DNA of 64,000 nt from a virus. The DNA is taken from the IMG/VR virus record IMGVR_UViG_3300000176_000008, positions 1-64,000 of that record; one strand, 5' to 3'. The notes beneath the pieces are model-generated. The model did not search any database. It was not told the DNA's origin and saw only the letters and a list, made by a program, of their open reading frames with translations. Every line of letters starts with the position of its first letter. Position 1 is the first letter of the stretch. Positions 1,508 through 42,073 of the stretch are shown piece after piece. A program made the position numbers and the translations under genes.

Positions 1508-4105
1508 TTAGGGCACTACTGTGGTTTTTACTACAGGTCCCGTAATGTCAATCCAAAATGAATTAACGCCGTCGTTGGTATATCTATAGATAGCATCATT
1601 ATTAGTGTTATACCAAATATCACCAACTACTGGTACAGGACTAGTCGGTGCGGTAGAACTGCTAGTAGTTCTAACGCCGCCTGCTACAATAGATGCTGCA
1701 GTAATTGCACCACCTACATTTAAATTTCCGCCGATGCCGGCACCACCGTTAACAATTAATGCCCCAGTAGTTGTACTGACGCTGTCAGTTGTTGTAGTAA
1801 TATGAGCACTACCATTGGCAACTTTTAAAGAAACAGCGTTAGGAACTGTTAGAGAAATATTTGCTGTGCCTACTGAACCAACACCAGTACCGTTAGGTGT
1901 TGCAGATAATAAGAATCTAGTAGCACTCAATACAGCAATTACATAATAAGTAGTATTTGCAGTTAACCCGAGCCCGCTCGATGCAGGTGTAACTGCTTCA
2001 CCGCCTATAAAGTTAGTAGTAGAGTTACTTTGGAAACTAACTCCATTGTAGCCAATGATCGATAACCCAGAAGAATTTCCCAGTACAGTGACTGCGCCAC
2101 CTACTTGTAGATTATTAGTTACACCTGCACTATTAATTACAGCAGTGCCACCGATATTGACACATCCACCAATACCCACGCCACCTGTGACTATGACAGC
2201 ACCTGTAGTGGTACTTGTACTTGTAGCGGTACTATTAAAGTTTGCTACATTTTCCACTCGCAATCCAGGAGCATAACCTGCTGTACTTGGAATATTTCCG
2301 GTACCTACAGTCCCTACACCAACACCGTTAGTAGTTGTTGATAGAACAAATTTAGTAGGACCAAGCACACCGGTAACATAATAAGTGATGCCCAATGATA
2401 ACCCTAGTCCAGAAGATTGGGGAATTAATCCCTCGCCACCTACAAATCCAGTGACTTCTTTACTTTGGAAACAAACACCGTTATAACTAATAATAGTAAC
2501 AACGACACTACCACCACTGATTACCAATGTTCCACCGACTTCTACATTGTCAACTACACTAATACTATTAGCAGTTAATAGATTACTAACAGTAATAGCA
2601 TCGGTAGTTGTAGAACCACCGTCAGTAACACTTTGTAATGTAGGAGTAGATACCACTGAAGAGATATTTGCTACACCGTTGATCACGGTAGCTGTTGTAC
2701 CTGTGGTAAAATTCAGTGTAGTTGCATTGCCGATTACAGTACCGTTGACTTCAATTGTGGTACTAGTTGATAGCTTAGAACCACCGATGCATAAAGAACT
2801 AGCAACAATACCACCTGCTACCTGCAGTGCATTGGTTGCTGTGCTGGTAATAACAGTGGTTGTGGAATAAATGTAGGTACCGCTGGTAGCAATGGACAAC
2901 ATTTTAGTAATGTTGCTAGTAGTTGTACCTGTGGGTGTAATCCATAACTCTGCACGAGTACCTTGAGCAGTGCCTAATTGGTGCTCGTCGGCAACAAAAT
3001 CCATTCTAGCATTACTGATTGGAGTCCAACCTGCAGTATTGTAACTTGTACCGCCGAATCTAGCAATGATATCGTTGTTGTTTAGTTCAGTTGGACTTGC
3101 AGTAGTGCCATTATAGTGGCGGCCGATGTAGGCAGCATAGTTGCCCGTGCCCTGTCCATCATTGTATACACGGCTCGGTGCTTCGACCTGACCAGTTAAC
3201 TGCAACATTACACCTAGATTTTGTGGTGCTTGACGACTATTATCTGCATTGCCGGAAATATTAACAACACCTGTGTAAGTAGACACAGCAGAGGCCACGC
3301 TTAAATAGCCGGTGATGCTGGTTGCAGCACCGACCATTAATGTATCAGCAACAAATAAATTCTGTCCAATACCAACACCGCCTAGTACCTGTAGGTCGCC
3401 TGTAGTGGTATTGCCAGTGTTAGGATGTCCGCTGCTTAATATTAATTGACCGGTTTGAAATGTACCGTAGGTAGCAGTACTAAAATTGTCAGTGGCAGTA
3501 TTGCTAGCACCTGTTCCGTACCATGTTAATCGTTGAGTACCGTCGGCTAATACTAGAGCAGCATTTTCGTCAGCTGATTTAGCACGATTATAGTAGTGGA
3601 AGCGGAATCCAATATCATTACCATCGTCTAATGTCCAATGATCGCCAACACCGCCCGGAGGAGTATGTAGTTCTAACAGTGCGGAGGTATAGTAGGTGTT
3701 GGTGCTGGCAACAAAGGTAGCGGTATTTTGGAATACAACGTTGCCGCCGAATAGTGTAGTTCCGCCCACATACAGAGTTTTAGTAATGTAGGCGCCGCCC
3801 TGTGTGTACAAACTATTGCTCGCACCTGTGCCAGTGCTGGCAGCACCGCTGGTAATGTTTAGATTACCAGAAAGATATTCGTTACCTGCAACATATAAGT
3901 CACTGCCAACACCTGCGCCACCTTCGACAACCAGCGCACCTGTAGTAGGGCTTGTAGCATTGGTTGGGCTAGTTACAGTTAAGTTTGTAGTAGCAGTAAC
4001 ATAGGCTGCAACACGCAACCAACGATTGTTGGTTGTGTTATACTGGTACTGTATGCCGTCTACTACAGCAATTTGACCGGTTGTTGGATTCTGTGGAAAT
4101 GCCAT
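1508..4105 (-). CDS. Tail fibre-like virion protein (865 aa)
   Basis: The N terminus MAFPQNPTTGQIAVVDG shares the P-x-x-P-T-x-G-Q-x-x-V module of the gene at 1-1449. At least five copies of the GGxGIGxxLxVGG cassette follow, for example STSTTTGAVIVTGGVGIGG. The C terminus carries a V-G-D-I-W-Y-N-T...Y-R-Y-T-N-D-G...W-I-D-I-T-G module that recurs in the genes at 4116-10037 and 18266-21085. Around residues 530-760 a module of about 145 residues is duplicated (one copy has YNGVCFQSKEVTGFVGGEG, the other YNGVSFQSNSTTNFIGGEA). The protein is almost entirely G, S, T, V, A and N, as expected of a beta-rich fibre. It lies 10 bases downstream of the 1973-aa fibre gene, so the two are probably cotranscribed. 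A role as tail fibre or adhesin is inferred; no receptor-binding domain was recognised. Confidence 0.78.
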   Translation of the reverse strand: MAFPQNPTTGQIAVVDGIQYQYNTTNNRWLRVAAYVTATTNLTVTSPTNATSPTTGALVVEGGAGVGSDLYVAGNEYLSGNLNITSGAASTGTGASNSLYTQGGAYITKTLYVGGTTLFGGNVVFQNTATFVASTNTYYTSALLELHTPPGGVGDHWTLDDGNDIGFRFHYYNRAKSADENAALVLADGTQRLTWYGTGASNTATDNFSTATYGTFQTGQLILSSGHPNTGNTTTGDLQVLGGVGIGQNLFVADTLMVGAATSITGYLSVASAVSTYTGVVNISGNADNSRQAPQNLGVMLQLTGQVEAPSRVYNDGQGTGNYAAYIGRHYNGTTASPTELNNNDIIARFGGTSYNTAGWTPISNARMDFVADEHQLGTAQGTRAELWITPTGTTTSNITKMLSIATSGTYIYSTTTVITSTATNALQVAGGIVASSLCIGGSKLSTSTTIEVNGTVIGNATTLNFTTGTTATVINGVANISSVVSTPTLQSVTDGGSTTTDAITVSNLLTANSISVVDNVEVGGTLVISGGSVVVTIISYNGVCFQSKEVTGFVGGEGLIPQSSGLGLSLGITYYVTGVLGPTKFVLSTTTNGVGVGTVGTGNIPSTAGYAPGLRVENVANFNSTATSTSTTTGAVIVTGGVGIGGCVNIGGTAVINSAGVTNNLQVGGAVTVLGNSSGLSIIGYNGVSFQSNSTTNFIGGEAVTPASSGLGLTANTTYYVIAVLSATRFLLSATPNGTGVGSVGTANISLTVPNAVSLKVANGSAHITTTTDSVSTTTGALIVNGGAGIGGNLNVGGAITAASIVAGGVRTTSSSTAPTSPVPVVGDIWYNTNNDAIYRYTNDGVNSFWIDITGPVVKTTVVP
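1845..2500 (-). repeat. Duplicated ~145-aa module within fibre gene
   Basis: Two diverged copies are read from the minus strand, one near 2285-2500 and one near 1845-2065. Both encode Y-N-G-V-x-F-Q-S...G-G-E...S-S-G-L-G-L...T-Y-Y-V...R/K-F-x-L-S...N-G-x-G-V-G-x-V-G-T-x-N-I. The copies are separated by one GGVGIGGCVNIGG cassette, so the duplicated unit is module plus cassette. Confidence 0.75.
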
Positions 4106-34708: not shown

Positions 34709-37357
34709 TTAAGCTGCCCATAAATTTCCATTTAAGGACTTGGCAGCTCTGTGAGTTTTGTCGGTATTTTCGGCAGTATCCTTCATATACTTAACTAACT
34801 CTTTCATTGTACTATTTAATGATTCTAGCTGTGCTGCGGTTTTTTCTTCTGTTGACTTTCCGCCGGTGGCAATCTTAGTAACTGCTTGAATCATTTGTGC
34901 CCCAGCATTAGATAGTGCTTCTGCTGCAGTAGGACCTTTTAACACAGATTTTAGTTTTTCTGCTTTGATGAGATCTACTGAATTGACTGCTTTGCCAAAT
35001 GCTGTAATACCTTGAGCATAGGTGTTTAGCGCAGGACCTAGTGTTGATACGCTCTTAATTCCAGATTCTGACATTTTAATGCCAGTACCTAAAGACAATA
35101 ACGAAACTCCTAATCCAGCAATAGGACCTGTTAGTTTTAATAAATCAAGGGCACTAACATCACTTAGCATTATTAGCCCTTTGGCTAAGTTTTGCATTTG
35201 CGGGCCAGCTAGTGCAACTGATACTCCGAACGGAACCATTGCTAGACCTAGTGCACCTATGGCTAGAGCGCCGGTTAAAATCAAGGGACTAGCAAAACTT
35301 AATACCGCTGCTACCGCTCCTAAACCTAATAGTGTAACAAATCCCTTGCCCATTTCTGCCCAGCTTACCTTGGCAAATTCTTGGAATCCTTTGGCAGCAA
35401 TAAAGATAGTACCTGCTAATAGACCTAGCGTAACTCCACCTAATAATACTCTAGGATTGCCCAGTGCACTTAACCCAGATGCAAGGCCTTTTAGCACACC
35501 TTTGATAGCATCGCCTATACCTTTACCTACCCCGGCTAGTGATGATCCTATACCACCAACTTTACCTGCAGCAGTTTGTGCGGCTCCTAGACCGGGTACA
35601 CCTGCACCCTTACCTCCTGCTGCTCCTGTAGCGGCATTTGTTATCCCGCTAAGAACGCCGCCTTTACCACCCCCTGCTACATTACCAGCAATGTTAGCCA
35701 GTGTCGATTTAGCCTTAACAACTACTAAACCTGCAATAATCAACCCGATAGAAGCAATTACACCTTTAATAACTTCACCAGTTTGTCCAAACCCTGCAAG
35801 TAAATTATTCAAATACTTTAAGCCGCCGGTGAGAGATTCAGCTAATTTTCCTACTAAGAACGAAGCTAGTTTAATCAATGGACTAAAGAAATCTAATAGT
35901 GCTGCACCTAATTCTTTTAGTGCACTAGTAGTTGCAGCCATTTGTGCTGCTTCGCTATGCTCTTGTGCTGCTTTTGTTTTTTGTCGTTGTATTTCGGCTT
36001 CATCTAATGCTGCTTTAGTTGTCATACCAGCCATTTGATCTTTTGCAGCCTGGCTTGCAGCTTTTTCATTTCCTTTAAGGGCATTGGTAGTTGATCCTAT
36101 TACCCCAGAAAATCTCATAAACTCACTGCCATTATTCAGTCTGGCTCGATCTTCGGCATCGCGTGCTTGTTGACTTTTTGCCCCGTATTTCATTGTAGCA
36201 TTATACTGATCTTGCAGAGACTTAGTGGCCATAGGAGCCAGTGCAGCATATTTTTTGCCAGCTTCAGTGGTAACTGCTCTACCTTGTGCTGCTGCAAGAA
36301 CATTATCAGCAGCACCTTGACCGTATTTTGCCAGTGCATCATTATACACTGCTGTAAATTTTTCTCGATCTGCTGTGCTCAATGATGCTTTATATAATTC
36401 CATATCTGCTGTATCTTGTTTTTGTTTAAATTCAGCAGCAAGTTGATCTCTACTTTTACCTGTGATATCTGCAAGTCTATCTAGTTGTTCTAAGTAATCT
36501 TTAGTACCTTGTGTTATTTTAGCAGTATCCTGTAGTTCTGCCTTGGTTCTACCTCCAGTGATAGTAAGGTAGTCAGCCATACCCTGGTTAACTTCTTGAG
36601 CAGAATAACCTAGAGCCATTAAGTCTTGACCAGCTGAACTTTGAATAAGGCTACGAGACATTCTAAAAAATGCCTGTGCTCCTTCATTAGCCGAACCACC
36701 TAGGGTAGCTAGGGTTTGAGAATTGTTTTTAATTATTCCGGTAAATTCATCTAAAGTCAAATAAGAATTTGCAGCAGCCATTCTCATAGATGTTAAACTA
36801 CCGCTAAAGTTTACACCCGAAGCCGATATCTTTTGATATGCTTGAAAATTTTCTTCCTGTATGCCAACTAGTTTAGAAAACCCCTGAAACAAAAGTCCAA
36901 TTATAGGATACTTTAAAGTAAGTGCTGTGCCAAAAGTATTGAGCATACCGCTGGCCGTAGCAGTACCTTGCAGTAGTTTGGTTATTTCATTATGTAATAA
37001 TGTAAAATTATCAACTGTTGCTTGAGCAGCATCTACCTGTGATTGTCTAAAATCATCTGTAGCAGCAGTAGTTTGTCTGACGGTATCTGTGTTGCTTTTA
37101 GTAGCAACATTTATGGCGTCTGTAGCAGAAGTTCCTTGCTTAACACTAGCAGTATTGCTTTGTGTTGCAGCAGTAGCAGCAGCAATAGTTGCAGGATCAA
37201 TACCTGCAGATCCTGCTAGGCCGGCAACTTTTAAAACCGCCGAGCCCCCTGCAATGGATTTCATAGAAGCCAATAGGGCCGCTAATGTAGTCTCTGTAGC
37301 TGCATTATTCAGTTCTACTTGTTCGTTGCCTATAAAGCCTGATACATTACCTGCCAT
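34709..37357 (-). CDS. Putative tail tape measure protein (882 aa)
   Basis: A long Ala/Gly/Lys-rich helical protein with coiled-coil stretches in the N-terminal half. Between residues about 480 and 760 lie hydrophobic segments (GVIASIGLIIAGLVVVKAKS; LLGGVTLGLLAGTIFIAAKG; VLSFASPLILTGALAIGALG), the combination usual for tail tape measures. It ends in a charged helix (LESLNSTMKELVKYMKDTAE). A gp26-like gene, related to tail/hub assembly, is transcribed away from the same bidirectional promoter, which fits a tape-measure and chaperone pairing. T4 gp29 is 590 residues and encoded elsewhere. Homology to gp29 is not visible by eye, so the call rests on composition and context. Confidence 0.6.
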   Translation of the reverse strand: MAGNVSGFIGNEQVELNNAATETTLAALLASMKSIAGGSAVLKVAGLAGSAGIDPATIAAATAATQSNTASVKQGTSATDAINVATKSNTDTVRQTTAATDDFRQSQVDAAQATVDNFTLLHNEITKLLQGTATASGMLNTFGTALTLKYPIIGLLFQGFSKLVGIQEENFQAYQKISASGVNFSGSLTSMRMAAANSYLTLDEFTGIIKNNSQTLATLGGSANEGAQAFFRMSRSLIQSSAGQDLMALGYSAQEVNQGMADYLTITGGRTKAELQDTAKITQGTKDYLEQLDRLADITGKSRDQLAAEFKQKQDTADMELYKASLSTADREKFTAVYNDALAKYGQGAADNVLAAAQGRAVTTEAGKKYAALAPMATKSLQDQYNATMKYGAKSQQARDAEDRARLNNGSEFMRFSGVIGSTTNALKGNEKAASQAAKDQMAGMTTKAALDEAEIQRQKTKAAQEHSEAAQMAATTSALKELGAALLDFFSPLIKLASFLVGKLAESLTGGLKYLNNLLAGFGQTGEVIKGVIASIGLIIAGLVVVKAKSTLANIAGNVAGGGKGGVLSGITNAATGAAGGKGAGVPGLGAAQTAAGKVGGIGSSLAGVGKGIGDAIKGVLKGLASGLSALGNPRVLLGGVTLGLLAGTIFIAAKGFQEFAKVSWAEMGKGFVTLLGLGAVAAVLSFASPLILTGALAIGALGLAMVPFGVSVALAGPQMQNLAKGLIMLSDVSALDLLKLTGPIAGLGVSLLSLGTGIKMSESGIKSVSTLGPALNTYAQGITAFGKAVNSVDLIKAEKLKSVLKGPTAAEALSNAGAQMIQAVTKIATGGKSTEEKTAAQLESLNSTMKELVKYMKDTAENTDKTHRAAKSLNGNLWAA

Positions 37358-37434: not shown

Positions 37435-38292
37435 ATGAATTCGCCAGCAAACCCACTATCAATGTTTATGCGTCAACCTAAGATCTATATCAGGTTGCCT
37501 AGCGGTGGGCAATATTGGCCTCAAGGTAGTCTAACTCCTACAGAAACCGGAGAGTACCCTGTTTACTCAATGACTGCTAAAGATGAGCTAATGCTCAAGG
37601 TGCCCGACGCTCTTATGAACGGGCAGGCTGTTGTTGATGTTATTCAACACTGTATTCCTAATATTAAAAATGCTTGGGATGTCCCATCCATTGATGTTGA
37701 TGTTATTCTAATTGCCATTCGTCTAGCAACCTACGGTGAAATGATGACTACTCCTGTAACATTTGGAGAGGATCTAGAGTTAGAATATCAACTAGATCTA
37801 AGAGTTGTAATGGATACATTAATGCAACAAATTCACTGGAATCCCATTGTACCGGTTACCGACGATCTAACAGTATTTGTAAAACCGTTAAACTATCGTC
37901 AAATTAGTTCAGCGGCAATTAAAACATTCGAAACTCAAAAGATGATGAGTATCGTAAATAACGACAAACTTACAGAAGAAGATAAAATTTCGTTATTCAA
38001 AGCCAGTTTCAAGAGCCTAAGTGATGCTACCCTAGGTACCATTACAGATAGTATTGATAAAATTGACAGCAGTCAAGGCAGTACAGATAATCCTAAATTT
38101 ATCAAAGAGTTTGTAGAAAACATCGACAAAGAAATCTTTAACAAGATTCAACAACATCTCGAAATCCTTAGAGATAACAATTCTATCAAACCTATGACAG
38201 TTGCAGTAACTGACGAAATGCGAGAAAAAGGTGTAACAGGCGATACTGTCGAAGTTCCTATTACATTCGATCCGTCTACTTTTTTCGTATAA
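37435..38292 (+). CDS. 26: gp26-like baseplate hub / tail assembly protein
   Basis: The N terminus (FMRQPKIYIRLPSGGQYWPQ) and the segments Y-S-M-T-A-K-D-E-L-M-L-K-x-P-D-A-L-M-N-G and C-I-P-N-I-K-N-A-W-D-V-P-x-I-D-V-D match the T4 gp26 (T4_baseplate) family, which acts in assembly of the baseplate hub and tail. It is 285 residues against 208 in T4. It has a GGAG SD eight bases before the ATG. The last sense codons read ACT-TTT-TTC-GTA-TAA, containing a TTTTTTC slippery heptamer two codons before the stop. A -1 shift would add 76 residues from the next frame and give a 360-residue product. That organisation resembles the G/GT-type tail assembly chaperones of lambda-like phages. Confidence 0.82.
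   Translation: MNSPANPLSMFMRQPKIYIRLPSGGQYWPQGSLTPTETGEYPVYSMTAKDELMLKVPDALMNGQAVVDVIQHCIPNIKNAWDVPSIDVDVILIAIRLATYGEMMTTPVTFGEDLELEYQLDLRVVMDTLMQQIHWNPIVPVTDDLTVFVKPLNYRQISSAAIKTFETQKMMSIVNNDKLTEEDKISLFKASFKSLSDATLGTITDSIDKIDSSQGSTDNPKFIKEFVENIDKEIFNKIQQHLEILRDNNSIKPMTVAVTDEMREKGVTGDTVEVPITFDPSTFFV
38280..38286 (+). promoter_or_regulatory. Candidate -1 ribosomal frameshift site
   Basis: T-TTT-TTC is in the zero frame of the gp26-like gene and fits the X-XXY-YYZ rule. The zero-frame stop TAA follows one codon later (38290-38292). The -1 frame is open from at least 38277 to 38516. A weak stem is possible downstream (GCTTTT at 38294-38299 with GAAGGC at 38313-38318, allowing G-U pairs). Confidence 0.6.
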
Positions 38293-38297
38293 GGCTT

Positions 38298-38516
38298 TTG
38301 CATCTTGATCTAGAAGGCATTAACCAGCTGGTCAAAGATTACGAGTTAGATTCAAAAGCCATCAAAGACGAACTTTTTAGGATATGCTGGTATATGAGGG
38401 GAGGACTCTCATATTCTGAAAGTATGCTATTAGGTTTTGAAGACCGAGAAATCATCGGTCGCATTATTGAAAAGAATTTGGAAACCACGAAAGAAAGTGG
38501 TCTTCCTTTCTTTTAA
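38298..38516 (+). CDS. Second frame of gp26-like gene (frameshift extension)
   Basis: The frame encodes LDLEGINQLVKDYELDSKAI then F-R-I-C-W-Y-M-R-G-G-L-S-Y-S-E-S-M-L-L-G-F-E-D-R-E and ends LETTKESGLPFF. The W-Y-M-R-G-G motif followed by a helix and a P-F-F end is typical of the second part of tail assembly chaperones. Its only start is a TTG at 38298 behind a weak AAGG, so it is more likely read as a -1 frameshift extension from 38286 (adding RIRLL before H-L-D-L-E). Independent reinitiation after the stop at 38292 is the alternative. Its stop overlaps the stop of the convergent gene at 38513. Confidence 0.72.
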   Translation: MHLDLEGINQLVKDYELDSKAIKDELFRICWYMRGGLSYSESMLLGFEDREIIGRIIEKNLETTKESGLPFF

Positions 38517-39259
38517 AGATTCATTCCTAGAAACCGACTGTAACCTACATCCTCGTTATATCCTCTAACTATATTAGGATTGTCATCTTCTGGCTCAGGT
38601 GCAGGCTTGACTGGTGCAGTAGCCGGTTTAGTATTAGCGTTAAACGAATAATTAACTTTTGGAACAGCACCTTGAGTCTGCCCTCCACCGTAATTAGTAG
38701 CTGTTGGTTTTGCAGGTTGTGTTGTTTGGGCCGATTGTGCTTGGTCTGTATTTGTTGGTTTTGCAGGTTGTGTTGGTTGCGTAGCAGGTTCTGCTTGAGC
38801 TGCAGGTTCTGCTTGAGTTGTAGGTTTTGCTTGTTGAGTATCAGCAGATTGTGTTGGTTGCGTAGCAGGTTCTGCTTGAGCTGCAGGTTCTGCTTGAATT
38901 TTACTTACAATATCTTTTTTAGCATCAGGATTTAATTTAGATACTAGTTGTAAAATTTGGTCAACTTCATTATCTCCACCTGTAGGAGCAGCCGCTGCTG
39001 CTATCGGTGCAGCAGTAGCAGGTCGACCTTGTCCTGTAGGAATAGGCGCTGCCCAACTAGGACCTTGACTTTGATTAGCATCAGGTTTTAATGCAGTTTG
39101 TCCTGCTTGGTATCCTTGCTTGGCACCATTCCATACATTTTTAAGTCCTTGAACTACTCCCCCAGCAACTGCACCAGGAACTCTGCCAAGGCCTTGCCCT
39201 AGTCCTTTAAGACTTAATTCGTCTAATTGATCTTCAGTTAATATTTCGTTGATTCTCAT
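38513..39259 (-). CDS. Low-complexity virion-like protein (248 aa)
   Basis: The first 60 residues (MRINEILTEDQLDELSLKGL, then G-R-V-P-G-A-V-A-G-G) look ordered. The rest is Ala/Pro/Gln/Thr-rich with tandem repeats of A-E-P-A-A-Q-A-E-P-A-T-Q-P-T-Q, ending in a short tail F-L-G-M-N-L. Its ATG shares one base with the TAA of the upstream gene (TAATG), so translation is coupled. The M-R/K-I-N-E-I-L-T-E start is common among virion-internal and core proteins of marine T4-like phages, but I cannot name a function. The repeats are the kind that vary in length between relatives. Confidence 0.6.
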   Translation of the reverse strand: MRINEILTEDQLDELSLKGLGQGLGRVPGAVAGGVVQGLKNVWNGAKQGYQAGQTALKPDANQSQGPSWAAPIPTGQGRPATAAPIAAAAAPTGGDNEVDQILQLVSKLNPDAKKDIVSKIQAEPAAQAEPATQPTQSADTQQAKPTTQAEPAAQAEPATQPTQPAKPTNTDQAQSAQTTQPAKPTATNYGGGQTQGAVPKVNYSFNANTKPATAPVKPAPEPEDDNPNIVRGYNEDVGYSRFLGMNL

Positions 39260-40985: not shown

Positions 40986-41579
40986 TCAATGTAACTTACC
41001 CGCAACCATTCCTTCTGGAATAACAGACTTACGATAATTTCTAATACCGTCGTTACACCATTTTAAGGAGGACATTTTCTCGGACATCCGTTCTCGGTAT
41101 CCTGGAATATTCCAATTAGCTGCTAGTTGGTTACATCTTTTTTTATAATTTTCTGGAATTGCTAGATATTCTTTTGTTTTTTTACTTAGATGTTGTGCCT
41201 GTTTTTGTTGTGCTTCTTTATATTTCTTCTTAGATTCTTCTGTATGTTTTTTGCCTTTATTTGTCCTTGAAAGTTTTTGTCTGCTTTCAATGGTCCACGG
41301 CATAGCGCCACCGTCTCCCATCTCTGGGACAATATTAGCAAATTCTTTGGATTCTACAATATTCCATAAATTTGAATAGTAAATTCCGGCTTCTTTAATT
41401 TCAGATGGATTAGTAGTTTCAAGCAAAATTTCAGTAGTTACATCATATCCGTGTTTTTTGATATGTTGCCTCCAAACGGTGCCCGAACCTTGATATAAAT
41501 GCGGATCAATAGAAATAGTCTTGCCAAGATATTTTAACCCAGTTTTGTTGTGGGTTTTTACATAGAGGTAAATAGGCAT
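40986..41579 (-). CDS. GIY-YIG homing endonuclease, Seg-like
   Basis: I start at the ATG at 41579, behind GAAGGAA, because the product then begins MPIYLYVKTHNKTGLKYLGK, the GIY-YIG motif (Y-L-Y-V-K-T...K-Y-L-G-K). The longer frame to 41687 adds a Ser/Thr-rich lead with no SD. Downstream come Y-Q-G-S-G...H-I-K-K-H-G-Y-D, a Lys/Glu/Gln-rich linker (KHTEESKKKYKEAQQKQAQ), and a DNA-binding tail with S-S-L-K-W-C-N-D-G-I-R-N-Y. This resembles free-standing Seg-type homing endonucleases of T4. It has its own late-type box at 41642-41649, which is common for phage HEGs. It sits beside the orphan region at 40495-40985. Confidence 0.8.
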   Translation of the reverse strand: MPIYLYVKTHNKTGLKYLGKTISIDPHLYQGSGTVWRQHIKKHGYDVTTEILLETTNPSEIKEAGIYYSNLWNIVESKEFANIVPEMGDGGAMPWTIESRQKLSRTNKGKKHTEESKKKYKEAQQKQAQHLSKKTKEYLAIPENYKKRCNQLAANWNIPGYRERMSEKMSSLKWCNDGIRNYRKSVIPEGMVAGKLH

Positions 41580-41641
41580 GCTGATAGTTCCTTCATAACT
41601 GTTAGAGTCAGTGGATGTTGACGCATCGCGACTGGCACTAA

Positions 41642-41649
41642 TATTTATT
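41642..41649 (-). promoter_or_regulatory. Candidate late promoter (AATAAATA)
   Basis: AATAAATA on the minus strand overlaps the stop of the upstream GIY-YIG gene and lies 62 bases before the endonuclease ATG at 41579. Late expression of the nuclease independent of the upstream recombination operon would follow. Confidence 0.45.
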
Positions 41650-42073
41650 AAATCTTGCCTTTTATATGTGATTGGTGTATCCTGCAACTTATCTGTCCGT
41701 TATAATAATCATCTGATTCTAATACTTTTCTTTCAAACTGGGTTCTTGCTTCTACATAAGTGCATTCACTTTTACTTTTGCAATAGAATAATATTTCTCT
41801 TGTAAAATTATTCTGGCCAAGCAATTCGATATCTTTTTTAAGTTCGTCTGAGCTAGACCAATATGTTTGCCAGTCGCTTGATATTTTGCTTCTAATTTTC
41901 TTCTTCTTTTTAGTGCCATTCTTTAGTGTAACAGTTTTATATGTTGTTTTAGAGAACTTTGCTAGTTTTTTGCCTATATATTTTCTACCATTGGTCAAGT
42001 TCGTGATAAGATATACAAATCCTACACAATCTTCAGGAAGAGTCTCCACTGCTTGATTTTGGTATGTCCACAT
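41648..42073 (-). CDS. GIY-YIG nuclease-domain protein (141 aa)
   Basis: The motif F-V-Y-L-I-T-N-L-T-N-G-R-K-Y-I-G-K-K (residues about 19-36) is a GIY-YIG core. It is followed by a basic loop (KNGTKKKKKIRSK), W-x-x-Y-W-S-S-S-D-E-L, and a C terminus with E-A-R-x-Q-F-E-R-K-V-L-E-S-D-D-Y-Y-N-G. It is a compact single-domain protein without the helix-rich DNA-binding tail of the neighbouring HEG. It overlaps the preceding zinc-finger gene by 41 bases and is part of the gp47-gp46 operon. That placement suggests a stably kept nuclease with a job in DNA metabolism, or an HEG that has settled in the operon. Confidence 0.72.
   Translation of the reverse strand: MWTYQNQAVETLPEDCVGFVYLITNLTNGRKYIGKKLAKFSKTTYKTVTLKNGTKKKKKIRSKISSDWQTYWSSSDELKKDIELLGQNNFTREILFYCKSKSECTYVEARTQFERKVLESDDYYNGQISCRIHQSHIKGKI

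Follow-up and report, generated by a model that had tools for sequence, protein, structure and literature searches.

We describe a gene related to gp26 of phage T4 which is very likely decoded by -1 programmed ribosomal frameshifting and whose two products would serve as a tail assembly chaperone pair, a reading based on sequence comparison. The gene lies in a 64,000-nucleotide (nt) stretch of viral DNA, positions 1 to 64,000 of IMG/VR record IMGVR_UViG_3300000176_000008 (hereafter the window); the virus record behind it spans 69.6 kb and includes a T4-type portal gene. Close to its 3′ end the gene carries the heptamer T_TTT_TTC, which is almost certainly a working -1 frameshift site. The site, its conservation in related phages, a coding extension in the -1 frame and a covarying stem downstream are observed directly. 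Coordinates are given in Table 1.

Table 1. Location of the proposed frameshift elements and of the neighbouring gene in the window
Feature	Position	Strand	Description and evidence
gp26-like gene, zero frame	37435..38292	+	285 amino acids (aa); proposed short tail assembly chaperone; PF12322, phrog_150, 39-sequence alignment, structure model
Slippery heptamer T_TTT_TTC	38280..38286	+	Present in the window's branch and in cyanophage-type relatives (counts in text)
6-nt spacer GTATAA	38287..38292	+	Includes the zero-frame stop TAA, 38290-38292
-1 frame extension	38286..38516	+	FF is followed by 76 aa and a TAA stop; would form the C-terminal domain of the long product; reading-frame, substitution, alignment and model evidence
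Stimulator stem, 5′ arm	38293..38305	+	Core GGCTTTTG, 38293-38300; covariation with slid and shuffled controls, RNAalifold, minimum free energy fold
Stimulator stem, 3′ arm	38348..38360	+	Core CAAAAGCC, 38353-38360; covariation, RNAalifold, minimum free energy fold
Divergent neighbour	34709..37357	-	Possible tape measure protein of 882 aa; most related jumbo phages have this gene next to gp26; weak profile matches of its own

An earlier sequence-only reading of this DNA had placed a T-TTT-TTC heptamer one codon before the zero-frame stop, followed by an open -1 frame encoding a 76-residue extension with a WYMRGG motif, a PFF end and a predicted 360-residue fusion. All of these sequence features were borne out. 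The gene ends with ACT TTT TTC GTA TAA, and the open -1 frame reaches from 66 nt 5′ of the heptamer to a stop at 38514-38516, the last coding nucleotide being 38513. The extension adds 76 residues after the shared FF, so that the predicted fusion has 284 + 76 = 360 residues. As had also been noted, the sole stand-alone start near the head of this frame is a TTG (38298), without a Shine-Dalgarno match. The zero-frame protein is a member of PF12322 (E 7e-10; 39.4 bits, compared with the Pfam curated cut-off of 24.5) and matches phrog_150 (E 1e-13). Its structural model, with a predicted local distance difference test score (pLDDT) of 88, resembles predicted T4-like baseplate hub assembly proteins, and the extension is predicted to be helical (pLDDT 91); the two parts were modelled as separate halves and not as a fusion.

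Conservation of the heptamer was assessed in homologues from annotated phages and IMG/VR contigs; counts cover loci with a readable 3′ end, and clusters were defined as below 70% identity (49 clusters). An in-frame TTTTTTC closes the gp26-like gene in 88 distinct copies, including that of the window, from all 49 clusters, down to 25% identity to the window. Two readable loci are exceptions: Xanthomonas phage XacN1, and phage Mel-JY01, which belongs to another branch and has its extension in the +1 frame. In XacN1, T_TTT_TTT replaces the heptamer near 3790-3800, and a -1 extension with VYFMRG is retained. The codon preceding TTT differs among copies (ACT, AAT, GAT, AGT, CAT, TAT, GCT or CGT), yet it ends in T in every case. 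Based on the codon usage of each gene alone, the chance of T-TTT-TTC in all 49 clusters has log10 P ~ -50, a figure that is indicative only and overstated because the calculation takes related clusters as independent. T_TTT_TTC encodes none of 17 other Phe-Phe pairs in the same proteins. The heptamer stands in the zero frame and is conserved beyond amino-acid constraint, as expected for a -1 frameshift site. Its presence in 49 clusters rules out a pseudogene or sequencing error.

The site is also a run of T, extended to seven in XacN1 and in one cyanophage-type contig, which could suggest slippage of RNA polymerase on the six-T run, with the fusion encoded by mRNAs that have gained or lost a base. 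We consider this explanation highly improbable. A run of six T is rather short for transcriptional slippage to be efficient, and the run is kept at exactly six T followed by C, in a fixed phase, in nearly all copies although a longer run would slip better. Polymerase slippage would also leave unexplained the RNA stem at ribosomal spacing described below.

The sequence past the heptamer behaves as coding sequence in the -1 frame. In every copy with a complete extension (87, with the window counted twice), this frame is open for 71-79 codons and both other frames are stopped. Substitutions in the extension at codon positions 1, 2 and 3 numbered 583, 304 and 1005, respectively, in 32 pairs that are not independent of each other. 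In the alignment, the near branch shows no variation at W37, R40 and G41 of the WYMRGG motif and very little at P76. Since the zero-frame stop occurs 3 to 33 nt past the heptamer, after variable residues, conservation beyond the heptamer belongs to the -1 frame. Thus, an open -1 frame runs through the site and is under protein-coding selection past the zero-frame stop, and the heptamer and this frame are both kept across homologues, the comparison in which the sequence-only reading could have failed.

How ribosomes enter this frame was examined from its 5′ boundary and its potential start codons. The -1 frame is closed 0-9 nt 5′ of the heptamer in 41 of the 49 clusters. No ATG, GTG or TTG is present in the extension frame up to codon 25 in 13 clusters, and in the others the position of such codons differs; a strong ATG with a Shine-Dalgarno sequence, which would have spoken against frameshifting, is not conserved across homologues. 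As far as sequence can tell, the heptamer is the only entry route into the extension that is common to all copies. Alternatively, termination-reinitiation or a weak start of its own might yield the extension as a separate small protein, with T_TTT_TTC being incidental. In 7 of the 49 clusters (e.g., L001, L004 and L037), the zero-frame stop and an ATG share bases as ATGA, a TAATG overlap occurs in Pseudomonas phage Cygsa01, where the heptamer is absent, and GenBank records of several phages give the extension as a separate hypothetical gene. Nevertheless, such a protein has a very low probability: start codons are missing or shifting as described above, and it leaves unexplained both an invariant T-TTT-TTC despite a varying preceding codon and a stem at a fixed spacer of 5-6 nt.

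The joined product was annotated in none of the jumbo phage records examined. For RaK2, PA5oct, Cassandra and other jumbo phages, the deposited annotation omits the extension or gives it as a separate hypothetical gene.

The sequence-only reading had regarded the downstream stem as poor, and this assessment did not hold. Starting 6 nt past the heptamer, GGCUUUUG (38293-38300) pairs with CAAAAGCC (38353-38360), located ~50 nt downstream, and more pairs form inside, resulting in a helix of up to 13 positions around a long loop. The fold of this stretch of the window has an energy of -20.3 kcal/mol (z -2.5). Covariation was analyzed in 50 of 72 sequences, picked for having stem arms in the same register; a separate tally covered the full set of 72. 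Pairing was found in 92.3% of cells, compared with 29-56% when the partner was slid, both sides had changed at 8 of the 13 stem pairs, and the covariation score was reached by 0 of 500 shuffles. For example, G-C is replaced with A-U at two adjacent pairs in L040, and pairs 22-73 and 23-72 alternate among AU, UA and CG. RNAalifold recovered the same helix unaided. Lineages without this partner build another helix from the same 5′ position (e.g., L001, L003, L056, L063, L067, L074, L089 and L092). Compared with dinucleotide shuffles, the best helix with a spacer of 5-7 nt had p <= 0.01 in 33 of the 49 clusters and <= 0.05 in 40. Missing or shifting start codons, the invariant, phase-fixed heptamer and a stem at ribosomal spacing led us to reject reinitiation and transcriptional slippage as main explanations.

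Under the frameshifting model, the majority of ribosomes would read ACT TTT TTC GTA and then stop, producing the 285-aa protein, which would be the short chaperone. The stem starting 6 nt past T_TTT_TTC would hold up some ribosomes, both tRNA-Phe would shift back by one base to pair with TTT TTT, and translation would resume at CGT. These slipped ribosomes would produce the 360-aa fusion, the putative long chaperone, with a helical C-terminal domain of 76 aa. Homology to T4 gp26/gp51 and analogy with lambda G/GT suggest that the short form may coat the tape measure protein and that the rarer long form may recruit tail tube subunits. Slippage in the cell and its efficiency, the long/short ratio, the binding partners and the chaperone role are what we infer from the sequences.

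Several observations are relevant to the chaperone function. Counterparts of the divergent neighbour are named putative tape measure protein in phage pEa_SNUABM_47 and, in RaK2, compared to a tape measure protein. In phages SP-15 and immuto, the gp26 gene sits between the tail tube and tape measure genes. It is possible, though unlikely, that the frameshift is real and the gp26-like protein is a part of the baseplate hub, with the long form being a minor structural variant and neither acting as a chaperone of the tape measure protein. The family is labelled baseplate hub in many records and in phrog_150, and T4 studies conflict over gp26 as a hub component (PMC3004832). However, PMC3004832 lists both T4 gp26 and T4 gp51 as chaperones of hub assembly and reports no gp51 in the particle, the gene order in SP-15 and immuto speaks against a hub part, and Vladimirov et al. 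2022, according to the citing papers PMC10885494 and PMC12846349, named tail assembly chaperones in T4-like phages.

Four observations weigh against a frameshifted chaperone pair. First, no significant simple stem was detected at a 5-7 nt spacer, relative to dinucleotide shuffles, in 9 of the 49 clusters (L005, L006, L010, L012, L014, L045, L069, L072 and L076), mostly jumbo phages; RNA structure at a spacing of 5-9 nt, found in the other clusters, is usual but not obligatory for -1 frameshift sites. Second, the possible tape measure gene is divergent from the gp26-like gene and not downstream of it. Third, when the folds of the two halves were searched in PDB, no solved tail assembly chaperone was matched significantly. 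Fourth, the window's own extension matches gp51 weakly (hhalign probability 58%). In addition, BFVD entries for named chaperones (BonaeVitae and Moogle) did not match the extension significantly, sequence searches of PDB gave chance matches only, and the extension of the window's branch had no PHROG match.

Other genes were noted in the vicinity. A protein with repeated P-T-Q/A-E-P stretches (38513-39259, minus strand) is encoded tail to tail with the extension, with an overlap of 4 nt. Two adjacent open reading frames at 40986-42073 (minus strand) look by eye like GIY-YIG endonucleases, and their neighbours resemble gp46 and gp47 genes.

The predicted frameshift arrangement extends to the wider gp26 family. 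Among 79 readable cyanophage-type contigs, TTTTTTC was present in 78 and TTTTTTT in one. In cyanophage DSL-LC02 and Aeromonas phage Ah1 (Straboviridae), gp26 ends with GAT TTT TTC followed by a single codon and the stop, and -1 extensions are present. These two extensions, together with the small protein of Cygsa01, matched the C-terminal part of T4 gp51 (hhalign 97%, E 4e-11). Their PHROG matches were to phrog_634 (baseplate hub assembly catalyst) and to the end of phrog_150. T4 gp26 (residues 1-206) and gp51 (residues 1-201) both match PF12322 end to end, with ~48 extra residues in gp51. The window family was linked to the T4 proteins via Pfam and a cyanophage profile, not by direct hhalign with single T4 sequences. 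Genome searches detected one PF12322 gene in each of 13 complete -1 frameshift phages, whereas T4, 44RR2.8t, EC-F2 and MD-2021a, which are without the site, have two each, of the gp26 and gp51 types. In Cygsa01 (2072-2982), a single PF12322 gene overlaps a gp51-like gene of 57 aa.

A separate branch was also observed. In SP-15, RM378, GXN1, immuto, LR756508 and Mel-JY01, extension-like sequence occurs in the +1 (or -2) frame at the same Phe-rich site, which reads TTT C or TTT T. Sequence features suggest that +1 frameshifting may be used in this branch; a scan of viral contigs for relatives of SP-15 found SP-15 itself only. We see about an even chance that frameshifting was the ancestral way of making two chaperones in the whole T4 gp26 family, that T4-type phages lost it upon duplication into gp26 and gp51, and that ribosomes slip by +1 at the same aligned position in the separate branch with SP-15, RM378, Mel-JY01, immuto and others. 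If true, one homologous site would show -1 slippage, +1 slippage and duplication as alternative solutions.

The principle of frameshifting in T4-like chaperone genes is already published. Among the papers accessible to our literature search, none described the site in the jumbo phages with a gp26-like gene. Vladimirov et al. 2022 may already cover the covarying stem, the breadth of occurrence, the split between one-gene and two-gene phages and the +1 branch. One review states that the G/GT-type frameshift has been kept widely among long-tailed phages "except T4" (PMC5009743). As a lambda-style frameshift is kept in most of the gp26-type phages inspected but is absent from T4, T4 looks like the exception. 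The present data would place such a frameshift, kept over a very wide range of T4-related phages, next to a strong stimulator stem, would provide a natural case in which gene duplication and frameshifting replace each other, and would call for revised annotation in many jumbo phages.

Comparison with known systems helps define what is shared. Lambda produces gpG and gpGT in a ratio of ~30:1; G binds to the tape measure protein, and T binds to the tail tube subunit (PMC5009743). The sequence-only reading had likened the window gene to lambda G/GT; this likeness is strengthened by gp26 family homology to T4 gp26/gp51 and by the one-gene/two-gene split, but the link between gp26 and lambda-type chaperones is not new, being already in Vladimirov et al. 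2022 according to papers citing it. Like the lambda gene, the window gene adjoins a possible tape measure gene. In contrast to lambda, the possible tape measure gene is divergent, the site has a strong covarying downstream stem, and the zero-frame protein is larger and belongs to the T4 gp26 family, with no sequence homology to the lambda proteins shown. The TAC-N/TAC-NC proteins of T4-like phages (Vladimirov, Gautam and Davidson 2022, known through PMC10885494 and PMC12846349) are similar in having short and long chaperones and poly-T -1 signals; such signals are known in TAC-N genes (PMC12846349), and some T4-like phages have one short and one longer fused gene in place of a frameshift (PMC10885494, citing Vladimirov et al. 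2022). With T4 itself, the window's zero-frame protein shares PF12322, found in gp26 and in residues 1-201 of gp51, and the extra C-terminal part of gp51 stands in the place of the extension. The difference is that T4 does not use a frameshift and instead has one gene for the short form and another for the long form.
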